Source: Streptomyces sp. TSRI0107 (lineage in GTDB: Bacteria; Actinomycetota; Actinomycetes; Streptomycetales; Streptomycetaceae). Taken from it: a stretch of DNA of 64,000 nucleotides. The notes beneath the pieces are model-generated. The model searched no databases. It had not been told where the DNA came from and saw only the letters and a list, made by a program, of their open reading frames with translations. This document shows, piece by piece, positions 7 to 47,461 of this stretch; positions within the stretch are counted from its first letter, which is position 1, and every line of letters begins with the position of its first letter. The DNA is taken from NCBI RefSeq assembly GCF_001905845.1, contig NZ_LIVZ01000005.1, positions 372,001-436,000 of the forward strand. Direction: 5' to 3'. Both the position numbers and the translations under genes were made by a program.

Positions 7-933
7 GTGCTGGGTCCCGTGATTCTCGCCGCGTCGCGAAGCGACCGGATGCGCCGCCTGATCTCGGCGGCCCCGGTGACCAAGCAGGTCGTCGACCGCT
101 TCATCCCCGGTGAGACCGTCGGCGACATCGTGCCGATCATCAAGGACCTCACGGCCAAGGGCCTGGAGCTGACGATGGACGTCGTCGGCGAGGACATCAC
201 CACCCCCGAGCAGGCCACCGCCGCCCGCGACGCCTACCTGGAGCTGATCGACCAGCTCAAGGACCTGGGGCTCGGCGAGCGCGTCGAGATGTCGGTGAAG
301 CTGTCCATGTTCGGGCAGGCGCTGGAGGACGGCCACGAGCTCGCCCTCGCCAACGTCCGCCCGGTCGTCGAGGCCGCCGCCGCGATCGGCACCACGGTCA
401 CGCTCGACGCCGAGGACCACACCACCCTCGACTCGATGTTCGCCATCCACGACGAGCTGCGGAAGGACTTCCCGCAGACCGGCTGCGTCATTCAGGCCTA
501 CCTGTTCCGCACCGAGGCCGACGCCCGCCGCCTCGCCGCGAACGGCAGCCGGGTGCGGATCGTGAAGGGCGCGTACAAGGAGCCCGCCGAGGTCGCCTAC
601 CAGCAGAAGCCGGAGATCGACAAGGCGTACGTGCGCGTCCTGAAGATCCTGATGGAGGGCGAGGGGTACCCGATGATCGGGTCCCACGACCCGCGCCTGA
701 TCTCCATCACACAGGAGCTGGCCCGGCGCGCCGGGCGCAAGCTCGACGAGTACGAGTTCCAGATGCTGTACGGCATCCGCAGCGACGAGCACCTGCGGCT
801 GGCCGCGGAGGGCCACCGCATGCGCGTATACACCGCCTACGGCACCGACTGGTACGGCTACTTCATGCGCCGCCTGGCGGAGAAGCCGGCCAACCTCCAG
901 TTCTTCCTGCGCTCGATGGTCAGCAAGGGCTGA
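7..933 (+). CDS. proline dehydrogenase
   Basis: Oxidises L-proline to delta-1-pyrroline-5-carboxylate with FAD, the first step of proline catabolism. The 308-residue protein has the size of the monofunctional actinobacterial enzyme and forms an alpha/beta barrel. Recognisable blocks are the VTLDAEDH segment near residue 140, RIVKGAYKEP near residue 190 and a C-terminal YGTDWYGYFMRRLAEKP block typical of the family. The GTG start lies only 6 bases from the window edge. I accept it because the protein then begins MLGPVILAASRSD, as I recall for Streptomyces homologues, but an upstream start cannot be excluded. The next gene, 38 bp downstream, encodes the second enzyme of the same pathway, which supports the call. 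The usual regulator would lie outside the window. Confidence 0.93.
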   Translation: MLGPVILAASRSDRMRRLISAAPVTKQVVDRFIPGETVGDIVPIIKDLTAKGLELTMDVVGEDITTPEQATAARDAYLELIDQLKDLGLGERVEMSVKLSMFGQALEDGHELALANVRPVVEAAAAIGTTVTLDAEDHTTLDSMFAIHDELRKDFPQTGCVIQAYLFRTEADARRLAANGSRVRIVKGAYKEPAEVAYQQKPEIDKAYVRVLKILMEGEGYPMIGSHDPRLISITQELARRAGRKLDEYEFQMLYGIRSDEHLRLAAEGHRMRVYTAYGTDWYGYFMRRLAEKPANLQFFLRSMVSKG

Positions 934-14130: not shown

Positions 14131-15393
14131 GTGCTCAGAAGCATGCGGGGGACGTCCGTCGCGGTGCTCGCGGGGGCGATGGTCGCGCTCTCGGCGACCT
14201 CGGCGGGCGCGGCACCGGAACCGCGGACCGAGCGGGTCACCGTGTCGGCGGCCGGGGAGCAACTGGACGGCGGGTCGGACGGGCCGCGGCTGAGCGCCGA
14301 CGGACGCTACGCCGCCTTCGGTTCCTACGCCGCGAACGTGGTGCCCGGCGACGGCAACGGGCAGCCCGACGCGTTCGTGCGGGACCTGCGCCGGGGGACC
14401 GTCGAGCGGGTCAGCGTGGCATCGGACGGCACACCGGCGGACGAGGCCAGCCACTACGTCAGGATCAGCGGCGACGGCCGGTACGTGGCCTACCGGTCCC
14501 GGGCGACGAACCTGGTCGCCTGGCCGCAGCCGCAGGCCTACTACAGCGACGTGTACGTCCACGACCGGCGCACCGGCGAGACCGAGCGGGTCAGTGTCGC
14601 CGCCGACGGCGGATCCGGCTGGGTGCGCGACAGCGTCGACATCTCCGGCGACGGCCGCGTGGTGGCCTTCACCGCCTCGGCGTCCAGGATCGAGGGCGGG
14701 GACGCGCCCAACCAGACCCGCGCCTACGTCCACGACCGCCGCACCGGCCAGACCCGCCACATCAGCGGCCACCTGCCGTCGGACTGGGACGTGCAGAACC
14801 TCCGTCTCAGCGCCGACGGCGAGCACCTGGCCTACGAGCAGCGCCACCCGCGCGGCGGCCGGGGCGAGTTGTGGCTGGCCGACCTGCGCACCGGCGAGCA
14901 GAAGCACCTGAACGTCGCCCCGGACGGCGCCCCGACCAACGGCGTGCCGGGAGGCCTGTCGATCTCCGCGGACGGCGGCCTCGTCGCGTACGGCTCCTTC
15001 GGCGAGAGCGTCGCCGGCGACGTCCCGCCGTACACCTGGGAGCTGTACCAGTACGACGCCCGGACCGGCGGCACCCGGTGGATCACCCACGAGGGCGCGG
15101 GCGAGCTGGGCGCGGGCACGCTCAGCGCGGACGGCCGCAAGCTGGCGTACCGGCAGGAGACGGCCCTGCCGGGCGGTGAGACGGCCGACAACGTGTACGT
15201 CCGCGATCTGCGCACCGGCCGGACCACGCTCGTCACCGAGTCCCTCGACGGGGGGCCGCTGACCGAGGGGTACAGCGCGCCGTCGGACTTCGCCCGCCAC
15301 GGCCGGCTGCTCGGCCTGTTCTCGACCTCCGGCCGGCTGGTGCCGGACGACACCAACGGGGAAGGGGACGGCTTCGTCCATCGTGTGCGGTGA
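14131..15393 (+). CDS. secreted TolB-like beta-propeller protein
   Basis: A 420-residue exported protein of repeated WD40-like/PD40 units. I take the GTG at 14131 (ribosome site GGGGGAA just upstream). It is followed by a Sec signal peptide (LRSMRGTSVAVLAGAMVALSATSAGAAPEP, cleavage near AGA-AP). At least six repeats of the pattern LSADGRYAAFGSYAANVVPGDGNGQPDAFVRDLRRGTVERVSVASDG can be followed, each with SADG or SGDG and a Y-V-(H/R)-D-x-R-(T/R)-G motif. The architecture gives a seven-bladed propeller typical of extracytoplasmic binding proteins. No enzymatic residues are evident and the function is unknown. Confidence 0.8.
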   Translation: MLRSMRGTSVAVLAGAMVALSATSAGAAPEPRTERVTVSAAGEQLDGGSDGPRLSADGRYAAFGSYAANVVPGDGNGQPDAFVRDLRRGTVERVSVASDGTPADEASHYVRISGDGRYVAYRSRATNLVAWPQPQAYYSDVYVHDRRTGETERVSVAADGGSGWVRDSVDISGDGRVVAFTASASRIEGGDAPNQTRAYVHDRRTGQTRHISGHLPSDWDVQNLRLSADGEHLAYEQRHPRGGRGELWLADLRTGEQKHLNVAPDGAPTNGVPGGLSISADGGLVAYGSFGESVAGDVPPYTWELYQYDARTGGTRWITHEGAGELGAGTLSADGRKLAYRQETALPGGETADNVYVRDLRTGRTTLVTESLDGGPLTEGYSAPSDFARHGRLLGLFSTSGRLVPDDTNGEGDGFVHRVR

Positions 15394-15459
15394 GTGATCT
15401 CGGGCTCGCATACTGAGACAGCCGTGAGCGCGGGGGCGGGGCTGTGCCAGACTGCCTCC

Positions 15460-15510
15460 GTGCTCTCGTTCGCCATGATTATTGGCAGCAGGCGCGCCGG
15501 TCCGCAGTGA
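15460..15510 (+). CDS. putative leader peptide with tandem Ile codons upstream of the citramalate synthase gene
   Basis: A 16-codon ORF starting GTG at 15460 (or an 11-codon one from ATG at 15475) reads MLSFAMIIGSRRAGPQ. It contains two adjacent ATT codons, which are rare in this GC-rich genome. The stop is followed 55 bp later by an attenuator-like hairpin and then the synthase gene. That arrangement fits ribosome-mediated attenuation sensing isoleucyl-tRNA. There is no obvious ribosome binding site, so translation is unproven. Confidence 0.4.
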   Translation: MLSFAMIIGSRRAGPQ

Positions 15511-15565
15511 CCGCCTCGTACGACCCGGTACGGGCGGACACCGTCGTCCTCGACCCGCGCGCAGA

Positions 15566-15590
15566 CCTCTCGCACCCGCGAGAGGTTTTT
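15566..15590 (+). terminator. attenuator-like intrinsic terminator in the citramalate synthase leader
   Basis: CCTCTCGC-ACCC-GCGAGAGG forms a perfect 8-bp stem followed at once by TTTTTCGTTTT. A T-run this good is unusual in Streptomyces. The hairpin lies about 100 bp before the synthase start and after the gene upstream has already ended, so it probably controls read-through into the synthase. I could not identify a clear competing antiterminator by eye. Confidence 0.65.
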
Positions 15591-15698
15591 CGTTTTCCTG
15601 GCCCACCCGCAGCCGGGAGAAGAGCGCGAGGATCATAGAAGGACGGTGGAGCCGGTCATTCCGGTAGACCGAGATCCCAAACAGGAGCCTTGACGACC

Positions 15699-17303
15699 AT
15701 GACGGAAACCAGCGAGCTCGACGACTCGTTCCACGTCTTCGACACCACCCTGCGCGACGGCGCCCAGCGCGAGGGCATCAACCTCACGGTCGCGGACAAG
15801 CTGGCCATCGCACGTCACCTGGACGACTTCGGGGTCGGGTTCATCGAGGGCGGCTGGCCCGGCGCGAACCCGCGCGACACCGAGTTCTTCGCCCGGGCCC
15901 AGAAGGAGATCGACTTCAAGCACGCCCAGCTGGTCGCCTTCGGCTCCACCCGCCGAGCCGGCGCCGACGCCGCCGACGACCCGCAGGTCAAGGCCCTCCT
16001 GGACTCCGGCGCCCCGGTGATCACCCTGGTGGCGAAGTCCCACGACCGGCATGTCGAGCTGGCCCTGCGGACCACCCTCGACGAGAACCTGGAGATGGTC
16101 CGCGACACCGTCGCCCACCTCACGTCCCAGGGCCGCCGCGTCTTCGTCGACTGCGAGCACTTCTTCGACGGCTACCGCGCGAACCCCGAGTACGCCAAGG
16201 CCGTCGTCCGTACGGCGGCCGAGGCCGGCGCCGACGTGGTGATCCTCTGCGACACCAACGGCGGCATGCTGCCCGCTCAGGTCCAGGCCGTCGTCTCCAC
16301 GGTCCTCGCCGACACCGGCGCCCGGCTCGGCATCCACGCCCAGGACGACACCGGCTGCGCGGTCGCCAACACCCTCGCCGCCGTCGACGCGGGAGCCACC
16401 CACGTCCAGTGCACCGCCAACGGCTACGGCGAGCGGGTCGGCAACGCCAACCTCTTCCCGGTGGTGGCCGCGCTGGAGCTGAAGTACGGCAAGAAGGTGC
16501 TGCCCGAGGGCAGGCTGCGCGAGATGACCCGGATCTCGCACGCCATCGCCGAGGTCGTCAACCTCACCCCGTCCACCCACCAGCCGTACGTGGGCCTGTC
16601 CGCCTTCGCCCACAAGGCCGGCCTGCACGCGTCCGCGATCAAGGTCGACCCGGACCTCTACCAGCACATCGACCCCGAGCAGGTCGGCAACACCATGCGG
16701 ATGCTGGTCTCCGACATGGCGGGCCGGGCGTCGGTGGAGCTGAAGGGCAAGGAACTGGGCGTCGACCTCGGCGGCGACCGGGAGCTGGTCGGCCGGGTCG
16801 TCGAGCGGGTCAAGGAGCGGGAACTCGAGGGCTACACGTACGAGGCCGCCGACGCGAGCTTCGAACTGCTGCTGCGCTCCGAGGTACAGGGCGGGCCGCT
16901 GCGCTACTTCGAGGTCGAGTCCTGGCGGGCCATCGTCGAGGACCGCCCCGACGGCACCCACGCCAACGAGGCCACCGTCAAGCTGTGGGCCAAGGGCGAG
17001 CGGATCGTCGCCACCGCGGAGGGCAACGGCCCGGTCAACGCGCTCGACCGGGCCCTGCGCGTCGCCCTCGAGAAGATCTACCCGCAGCTCGCCAAGCTCG
17101 ACCTCGTCGACTACAAGGTCCGCATCCTGGAGGGCAAGCACGGCACCCAGTCCACGACCCGCGTCCTGATCTCCACCTCGGACGGTGCCGGCGAGTGGTC
17201 CACGGTCGGTGTGGCGGAGAACGTCATCGCCGCGTCCTGGCAGGCCCTGGAGGACGCGTACACCTACGGACTCCTGCGGGCCGGGGTGACCCCCGCCGAG
17301 TAG
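15699..17303 (+). CDS. cimA: citramalate synthase / 2-isopropylmalate synthase family protein
   Basis: A DRE-TIM metallolyase condensing acetyl-CoA with a 2-keto acid. It is 534 residues from the ATG at 15699. A TTG at 15690 is also possible, but the AGGAG at 15683-15687 is too close to it. The HMGL-like barrel carries FDTTLRDGAQREGINLTV (metal and catalytic Arg-Asp), GFIEGGWPGANPRDTEFF and the metal ligands in LGIHAQDDTGCAVAN and THVQCTANGYGERVGNANL. The C-terminal LeuA allosteric domain follows (about residues 400-520). The GGWPGANPRD variant and the HxQDDTG motif are typical of the CimA/LeuA2 subgroup that makes (R)-citramalate from pyruvate for isoleucine synthesis. The substrate is inferred. 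The Ile-containing leader upstream supports an isoleucine role. Confidence 0.85.
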   Translation: MTETSELDDSFHVFDTTLRDGAQREGINLTVADKLAIARHLDDFGVGFIEGGWPGANPRDTEFFARAQKEIDFKHAQLVAFGSTRRAGADAADDPQVKALLDSGAPVITLVAKSHDRHVELALRTTLDENLEMVRDTVAHLTSQGRRVFVDCEHFFDGYRANPEYAKAVVRTAAEAGADVVILCDTNGGMLPAQVQAVVSTVLADTGARLGIHAQDDTGCAVANTLAAVDAGATHVQCTANGYGERVGNANLFPVVAALELKYGKKVLPEGRLREMTRISHAIAEVVNLTPSTHQPYVGLSAFAHKAGLHASAIKVDPDLYQHIDPEQVGNTMRMLVSDMAGRASVELKGKELGVDLGGDRELVGRVVERVKERELEGYTYEAADASFELLLRSEVQGGPLRYFEVESWRAIVEDRPDGTHANEATVKLWAKGERIVATAEGNGPVNALDRALRVALEKIYPQLAKLDLVDYKVRILEGKHGTQSTTRVLISTSDGAGEWSTVGVAENVIAASWQALEDAYTYGLLRAGVTPAE

Positions 17304-46980: not shown

Positions 46981-47052
46981 TGGCCTATGGTGTAATTGGC
47001 AGCACGACTGATTCTGGTTCAGTTAGTCTTGGTTCGAGTCCAGGTAGGCCAG
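46981..47052 (+). tRNA. tRNA-Gln (CTG)
   Basis: 72 nt with acceptor TGGCCTA/TAGGCCA and discriminator G. The anticodon loop is TTCTGGT with CTG at 47014-47016, and the T-arm is GGTTCGAGTCC. The 3' CCA is not encoded. Confidence 0.95.
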
Positions 47053-47093
47053 CTCGCGGAGCTTCATCCGCAACCGTGGATCTGATCCACAAA

Positions 47094-47166
47094 GCCCCCG
47101 TTGTGTAGCGGCCTAGCACGCTGCCCTCTCAAGGCAGTAGCGCCGGTTCGAATCCGGTCGGGGGTA
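47094..47166 (+). tRNA. tRNA-Glu (CTC), copy 1
   Basis: 73 nt with acceptor GCCCCCG/CGGGGGT, discriminator A and anticodon CTC at 47128-47130. The anticodon stem CTGCC/GGCAG differs from copies 2 and 3 by a compensated base pair. CCA is not encoded. Confidence 0.95.
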
Positions 47167-47195
47167 CGGTGATCTCTCACGAGATGATCGCTAGG

Positions 47196-47268
47196 GCCCC
47201 CGTTGTGTAGCGGCCTAGCACGCCGCCCTCTCAAGGCGGTAGCGCCGGTTCGAATCCGGTCGGGGGTA
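47196..47268 (+). tRNA. tRNA-Glu (CTC), copy 2
   Basis: 73 nt, anticodon CTC at 47230-47232, anticodon stem CCGCC/GGCGG. Identical to copy 3 as far as I can see. Confidence 0.95.
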
Positions 47269-47288
47269 CTGACTGGTCTAAACCACAT

Positions 47289-47360
47289 TGGTCTATGGTG
47301 TAATTGGCAGCACGACTGATTCTGGTTCAGTTAGTCTTGGTTCGAGTCCAGGTAGACCAG
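47289..47360 (+). tRNA. tRNA-Gln (CTG), copy 2
   Basis: 72 nt, anticodon CTG at 47322-47324. It differs from the first tRNA-Gln only by a compensated C-G to T-A change in the acceptor stem (TGGTCTA/TAGACCA). Confidence 0.95.
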
Positions 47361-47388
47361 CTCGGACCTGCGGAAACGCAGAGTCCAC

Positions 47389-47461
47389 GCCCCCGTTGTG
47401 TAGCGGCCTAGCACGCCGCCCTCTCAAGGCGGTAGCGCCGGTTCGAATCCGGTCGGGGGTA
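47389..47461 (+). tRNA. tRNA-Glu (CTC), copy 3
   Basis: 73 nt, anticodon CTC at 47423-47425. It is the last member of the Gln-Glu-Glu-Gln-Glu cluster and is followed by a terminator. Confidence 0.95.

Follow-up and report, generated by a model that had tools for sequence, protein, structure and literature searches.

Among the described systems, the ilvBNC leader of Corynebacterium (ilvB-II motif, "fast attenuator") stands closest to the element reported here. According to the excerpted texts of PMC11857589 and PMC10272879, the start of its leader peptide lies at or next to the transcription start (1 nt in C. glutamicum), and it shares with the cimA leader the branched-chain codons and a stall-formed hairpin beside a U-tailed terminator; however, it has a 3-nt hairpin overlap, mixed branched-chain codons, and ilvB as its gene, whereas the cimA leader has no shared base, isoleucine codons, and cimA. 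In C. glutamicum, replacement of the valine codons reportedly abolished valine-dependent expression, and the antiterminator hairpin adjoins the terminator (PMC11857589, excerpt). The ilvB1 leader of M. tuberculosis resembles the cimA leader in its short ORF rich in branched-chain codons; a terminated leader RNA is described for it, and codon replacement (LVVI to AAAA) removes the response, leaving expression low and unresponsive. It differs in its gene, its codons, and its mutually exclusive hairpins, a distinction drawn from its description rather than from its sequence (PMC13236596, excerpt). The Streptomyces ilvB leader (MRTRILVLGKRVG) is listed as a leader with a terminator whose mode is unclear, and the list of 8 S. 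lividans attenuators in the same excerpt holds no cimA leader (PMC8079986). A 2005 survey of Actinobacteria, in its excerpted part, does not name one either (PMC1262725), the main text of a 50-genome RNA survey mentions neither cimA nor citramalate, and the open-licence literature yielded no cimA leader or attenuation, also under SCO5529, most subscription papers being outside the scope of the search.

We describe here a leader upstream of cimA in Streptomyces. From its sequence it is very likely an attenuator responding to Ile-tRNA, and we predict, with good though lesser confidence, that it attenuates cimA transcription in response to isoleucine, through the ribosome and with two hairpins abutting in tandem.

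Layout of the leader upstream of cimA

The window, i.e., the whole 64-kb stretch of DNA analyzed (G000:C26:372001-436000), belongs to a genome of 8.74 Mb. The leader sits between an upstream ORF that ends at 15393 and cimA, and its features, in window coordinates, are as follows.

15448-15453 (+): -10-like element CAGACT, called by sequence, 6 nt upstream of the leader start codon
15460-15510 (+): leader ORF of 16 codons with a GTG start, peptide MLSFAMIIGSRRAGPQ, predicted leaderless; TGA stop at 15508-15510
15478-15483 (+): tandem Ile control codons ATT-ATT; tandem Ile codons are kept in 85/100 aligned rows
15492-15502 (+): 5' arm of helix P-B, GCGCGCCGGTC, within the leader ORF; covarying helix with 15552-15562
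15507-15541 (+): hairpin P-A (15507-15521 with 15528-15541), which holds the stop codon and is missing, by eye, from the shortest relatives
15552-15562 (+): 3' arm of P-B, GACCCGCGCGC, helix partner of 15492-15502
15563-15588 (+): terminator hairpin P-T (AGACCTCTCGC / GCGAGAGGTTT), arms 15563-15573 with 15578-15588, adjoining P-B
15586-15598 (+): U-rich tract TTTTTCGTTTTCC, U-rich also in relatives, where it varies
15699-17303 (+): cimA, citramalate synthase, the putative regulated gene, with TIGR00977, PF00682, and PF08502 matches

The long helix P-B encloses hairpin P-A and is followed by P-T, which runs into TTTTTCGTTTTCC. A sequence-only reading of this locus had pointed out ATT-ATT, an 8-bp terminator stem (CCTCTCGC/GCGAGAGG, 15566-15573 with 15578-15585), and a T5 run (15586-15590), and all three were confirmed; by RNA folding, the stem can lengthen to 11 pairs. 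That reading made no mention of helix P-B or hairpin P-A. Its description of ATT as rare holds, the 21 long high-GC3 ORFs of the window using ATC 373, ATT 4, and ATA 4 times (n = 381), with ATC in 17/17 and ATT in 0/17 of the Ile codons within cimA itself. Its assignment of the downstream enzyme to the citramalate branch is borne out by the curated equivalog TIGR00977 (637 bits versus a cut-off of 450), with further matches to PF00682 and PF08502; judged by these matches, the gene downstream of the leader is citramalate synthase. The Ile-codon ORF that it proposed is real, but its start was misplaced: ATG 15475 is not conserved (ACG in L010, L014, L015, and L027), whereas GTG 15460 is invariant and in frame across the 30 nearest cimA loci.

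A terminator scan of 14800-16000 returned this terminator as its single site (shuffles, mean 0.3), and the minimum-energy fold of -67.3 kcal/mol (z = -4.54) was equalled in stability by 0/200 shuffles; by sequence only, an intrinsic terminator thus lies between the leader ORF and cimA. Since a -10-like element stands six nt before GTG 15460, the transcript is predicted to start at 15460, and the leader mRNA is probably leaderless. A -10-like hexamer is found 5-9 nt upstream of an in-frame start in 87/100 aligned rows, compared with a 6.5% background; the latter refers to one random position, whereas each row could offer several candidate starts. A transcription start downstream of 15596, which would have spoken against the sequence-only reading, is not indicated. 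A stretch conserved in most of the 30 nearest relatives (GACGGTGGAGCCGGTCATTCCGGTA.GACCGAGAT, 15636-15690) lies downstream of the terminator and upstream of the ribosome-binding site of cimA, and could form a small hairpin.

Spread of the element and selection on its RNA structure

The leader was present in 30/30 of the best-matching cimA loci (own included) drawn from 295 genomes of the genus, and the 30 nearest cimA loci were used to build a covariance model, R1. This model found the element in 281/293 genomes of the order (E <= 0.001) and, with the R1 list counted by kinship, in 272/273 genomes of the own genus. With laxer filters, 19 of 21 re-searched genomes gave a match (E <= 1), including 10 of 11 order genomes previously missed. 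A broader model, R2, located the element in 199/394 genomes of the class, in 85/137 genera, and in 49/296 genomes of a phylum sample that included the own class; the genera carrying it among the named genomes listed include Streptomyces, Nonomuraea, Actinomadura, Microbispora, Streptosporangium, Jiangella, Pseudonocardia, and Actinopolyspora. The window's own genome has a single copy (E = 1.7e-40; next match, 0.23). The gene itself reaches further, cimA being found in 308/394 class genomes (E <= 1e-120) versus 199/394 for the element. Among 20 chosen cimA genes from genomes without a model match, a simple scan found a diverged Ile leader plus U run in 6 (L422, L425, L426, L427, L428, and L430) and none in 14. 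The latter indicate that the element is dispensable, and the two counts together that it is common, not universal, and undercounted by the model.

At gathering score, Rfam, including T-box and known leaders, gave no match to the element; its only matches in the window are tRNAs, elsewhere, and the best subthreshold match (E = 0.094) falls on the opposite strand. A riboswitch or T-box identity was dropped because Rfam was without a match. Five tRNA genes are clustered at 46981-47461 of the window.

Alignments A2 to A6 were fitted to the model, which favours its structure and spacing, whereas A1 was unfitted; A6 consists of 100 chosen loci of the same class (own included) and is not a random sample. 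L123, a chance match with neither Ile codons nor cimA, was omitted from later alignments and is still counted among the 51-row covariation set. A second weak match in L101 was removed by a stricter cut-off, and nine short matches plus the weak L200:123-203 were set aside unread. The aligned elements are roughly 80-140 nt long. In the fitted 100-row alignment, 928/985 cells of P-B and 1074/1089 of P-T are paired; in the 51 distinct rows (also fitted, L123 included), both sides have changed at 6/10 P-B pairs, and the structure as a whole outdoes each of 500 shuffles and all slid controls. In an unfitted alignment of the 30 nearest loci, P-B is invariant, and in two pairs of P-A both sides have changed. 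The reading frame over P-B varies, one Streptomyces lineage having IIGSSAPVRSG versus IIGSRRAGPQ, and in other families the P-B RNA lies downstream of the stop codon (MAQALIIG, MTHWMIII) with P-B kept. Because P-B covaries while the frame over it differs between lineages, it is the RNA structure that is selected there. The shortest relatives consist, by eye, of P-B and P-T alone (L206), and hairpin P-A is dispensable.

Two further candidates were rejected. A long ORF over the stop (GTG 15507 onward, by eye) shows changes at second codon positions and a 1-nt deletion in L019 and L027; a pairing of the first leader bases CTCTCG with the terminator 3' arm (by eye) is broken in L012 and absent from most of the distant leaders.

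Control codons and the genes they precede

Within 27 nt upstream of P-B, tandem Ile codons occur in 85 of the 100 rows, compared with a mean of 3.15 and a maximum of 9 in shuffles; 14 rows have a single Ile codon, and the one row with none (L222) has a Val-Val leader and precedes ilvB. The tandem codons are ATT 118 times and ATC 68 times, and in some rows Met or Thr takes the place of the second Ile codon. The leader ORF thus carries codons for the pathway product, as an attenuator would. Relatives keep both the Ile codons and the hairpin, in 30/30 of the nearest loci and with tandem or single Ile codons in the 85 and 14 rows above; their loss in relatives would have spoken against the sequence-only reading.

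The genes behind the element were read at 60 places outside the genus, a part of those listed for the class by R2. There 57/60 precede cimA, 2 (L207 and L220) a small ACT-type-fold protein, and 1 (L222) ilvB; the cimA N-terminal motif is directly seen in 56/60, and L197, with a DTTMRDG variant, is the 57th. Among the matches listed in a pattern scan of named genomes, the cimA motif lies within 600 nt in 80/80 loci, and a simple scan found a short ORF with Ile in 75/80; cimA identity at these 60 and 80 places means the N-terminal motif.

Some Streptomyces carry second copies of the element, before a second cimA (L120), a lone allosteric domain (L133), or small proteins. The protein of L133 (G021:C12) is a stand-alone CimA/LeuA allosteric domain (PF08502, E = 6.5e-12; TIGR00977, E = 3.9e-16) and is possibly a partner subunit. 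Small stand-alone proteins were observed behind the Ile leader copies of L125, L126, L128, L129, L131, L137, L119, L121, L207, and L220, those behind L119 and L121 being read by eye and aligned. The alignment of these ten (A7) gave a predicted ACT-domain fold (pLDDT 89.6) whose best PDB match is Ser33, an enzyme that bears an ACT domain, ahead of regulatory subunits of acetohydroxyacid synthase (AHAS) (TM 0.84-0.86 versus IlvN 5ypp; TM 0.90 versus the AHAS holoenzyme 6lpi_E). Sequence matches are weak, ACT_4 being found in 2/10 (best E = 0.0014), and the ACT-like alignment had no significant match when searched by sequence against the PDB; on the modeled fold, these proteins are possibly extra feedback subunits. 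Three second Ile-leader copies (L122, L132, and L134) have no assigned following gene. Outside these three, the identified genes behind the element fit isoleucine or branched-chain synthesis.

Sixteen weaker matches from outside the class (L349-L364) were also fetched. In 6/16, curated models confirm a downstream gene that the leader codons match: leuA behind Leu-Leu-Leu (L349), leuS behind Leu-Leu (L358), and ilvB behind mixed branched-chain codons (L350, L359, L360, and L362). In L357 and L364, ilvB lies farther downstream (by eye), and 8/16 (L351-L356, L361, and L363) have no confirmed codon-gene match, with L356 judged a chance match that precedes a glutamine-synthetase-like gene (by eye). 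As far as these sequences tell, the leader codons change together with the gene served. In L361, an aminotransferase is preceded at 300-391 (+) by a leader of similar two-hairpin build whose peptide is MKLTRRSNK.

Ribosome position and the abutting hairpins

The leading edge of the ribosome lies about +15 from the first P-site base, and this value was used to place it on 99 rows, L222 being omitted for want of an Ile codon. When the A site of the ribosome holds the first Ile codon, the distance from the first P-site base to the start of P-B is +14 to +19 in 98/99 rows. A ribosome placed at the stop codon hides 7-38 nt, counted from the start of P-B, in 98/99; the one exception lacks a nearby stop. 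In the fitted alignment, P-B and P-T follow each other without a gap in 95 of the 100 rows and with a gap of 1 nt in the other 5, and free minimum-energy folds leave 0, 1, or 2 unpaired nt in 84, 15, or 1 rows, with P-B as the neighbor in 99/100. By geometry, therefore, the cimA leader has the C. glutamicum-type arrangement of a stall-formed hairpin adjacent to the terminator, and the shared boundary trinucleotide of that type is absent, with no base common to P-B and P-T in the aligned pairs of 100 rows.

We propose the following mechanism. Transcription would start at the first codon of the leader, as the -10-like element suggests, and a ribosome would translate the leader. When Ile-tRNA is short, the ribosome would stall at the Ile codons; the coordinates put its leading edge at the foot of P-B, which would remain folded. 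Pressed between the stalled ribosome and the terminator base, P-B would block the closing of the last terminator pairs, and RNA polymerase would read through into cimA. When Ile-tRNA is plentiful, the ribosome would be found at the stop codon, covering, by the coordinates, the 5' arm of P-B, so that P-B would be unzipped and the terminator would work. In E. coli, shifting a stop codon so that 5 bp separated it from a terminator lowered termination from ~90% to under 10%, and closing of the final 2-3 terminator pairs is reportedly essential (PMC4824070, excerpt). The sign and the codon dependence of the proposed mechanism are borrowed from C. glutamicum ilvBNC and M. tuberculosis ilvB1. A result that counts against it comes from the S. 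coelicolor ilvB leader, where control-codon changes were reportedly without effect on regulation (cited in the excerpt of PMC1262725), because the ilvB leader of the window's own genome shares the architecture: this leader has the same order, codons, a P-B-like helix (GCGCGTCGG/CCGGCGCGC), and a near-abutting terminator. It lies outside the window, where MRTRILVLGQRVG, at G000:C26 from 356411 (L366 2411), shows the tandem-hairpin order of the cimA leader. Further points against the proposed mechanism are the 14/20 chosen cimA genes without such a leader, the rows with Met or Thr as second codon, and the 8/16 outside-class matches without a confirmed codon-gene pair.

Folding was compared at three ribosome positions. 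The probability of the finished terminator, averaged over 99 rows, was 1.000 for the naked RNA, 1.000 for the stalled state, and 0.994 at the stop. The measure has little power, since the own genome's trpL (L408) also stays nearly flat (1.000, 0.956, and 1.000); trpL, which shares control codons and a terminator hairpin with the cimA leader, was located by reading the 44 sites of an unspecific pattern search, a second pattern search being empty. More telling is how far the terminator 5' arm is engaged in upstream pairing while its 3' arm has yet to be transcribed, with the following values.

99 rows: naked 0.21, stalled 0.08, at stop 0.36
Window's cimA leader: naked 0.34, stalled 0.06, at stop 0.57
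trpL control: naked 0.58, stalled 0.73, at stop 0.35
Own ilvB leader: stalled 0.28 (first control codon) or 0.02 (Val-Leu codons), at stop 0.24

When stalled, trpL thus pre-pairs its terminator 5' arm (0.73 versus 0.35 at stop), whereas the cimA leader does not (0.06 versus 0.57). In 99 rows and at the three ribosome positions, folding revealed no competing antiterminator, while the trpL pre-pairing control was positive; the terminator and antiterminator with a common strand, mutually exclusive in the trp type, are not seen in the cimA leader. The sequence-only reading had called this an attenuation-type leader whose Ile codons match the product and had looked to the leaders of relatives for an antiterminator. 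The former is supported; the latter did not materialize, and because no mutually exclusive antiterminator was found, the leader is not a textbook attenuator. Since its stalled-state arm is the least tied up, the opposite of trpL, abutment draws its support from geometry and analogy and not from folding. If stalling turns cimA on, no strand common to two hairpins is visible as the cause. The chances that antitermination would proceed by abutment, rather than by a competing pairing that escaped detection, appear to us evenly balanced.

The latter would make the leader a classical attenuator whose antiterminator folding misses, be it kinetic, tertiary, or a short overlap of P-B and terminator as in C. 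glutamicum ilvBNC. Such an overlap has precedent in the 3-nt antiterminator/terminator overlap through which ilvBNC reportedly switches (PMC11857589, excerpt) and in the Corynebacterium ilvB-II motif, for which the excerpt of PMC10272879 draws base pairs between the P1 loop and an arm of the terminator; moreover, the finished-terminator probability barely responds even to the trpL switch (0.956 when stalled), so that a kinetic one could escape it. However, P-B and the terminator have no common base in the fitted alignment and lie 0-2 nt apart in free folds, the P-B loop of the shortest forms (L206, by eye) is a few nt long and leaves little space for a third strand, and pre-pairing of the terminator 5' arm is lowest when stalled in the same test that reveals the trpL switch. 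We consider this reading possible but unlikely. Quite improbable is a role of P-B as a protector or pause hairpin that isolates the terminator, in which stalling would give more termination and a ribosome at the stop would free P-B strands to interfere. The terminator 5' arm is indeed freest when stalled and partly tied at the stop (0.08 versus 0.36; window, 0.06 versus 0.57), but this at-stop pairing is partial, the finished terminator still forming at 0.994 on average, and for a biosynthetic gene such a sign would be the wrong one, in conflict also with the excerpted reports on ilvB relatives (PMC11857589, PMC13236596).

A plain terminator of the upstream gene next to a chance short ORF, with the cimA promoter after 15596, could serve the ORF that ends at 15393 and would leave room for the unexplained conserved stretch between terminator and cimA; the start, Ile codons, P-B, and spacing are nevertheless conserved across the class, with cimA downstream in 57/60 places and, among the matches listed, 80/80, and we regard this reading as very improbable. 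Arrest of the ribosome by the leader peptide through its RAGP ending, which presumably resembles the SecM arrest motif, and which has in its favor that RRAGPQ ends the peptide in the 30 nearest loci, is hardly credible and largely refuted, the peptide ending not being conserved while the RNA is: another Streptomyces lineage reads the same RNA as SSAPVRSGR, and other families have it after the stop (IIG-stop, III-stop) with P-B kept.

The cimA leader therefore appears to be an amino acid attenuator in its action, unlike the classical type, whose competing pairing was sought here and not found. More tentatively, and with somewhat less than even confidence, the branched-chain attenuators of Actinobacteria may form one old family of abutting tandem-hairpin switches whose codons change with the gene served (cimA, Ile; leuA or leuS, Leu; ilvB, Val or mixed) and where a hairpin and a stalled ribosome crowding the terminator, not competing pairs, would cause antitermination. 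The element names a control point of isoleucine synthesis that we did not find in print in the open-licence literature and that occurs in much of a class noted for antibiotic producers drawing on branched-chain precursors. Its compact design is suited to testing whether a hairpin abutting the terminator, without a competing pairing, is enough for antitermination, and it may bear on the puzzling codon result of the S. coelicolor ilvB leader.
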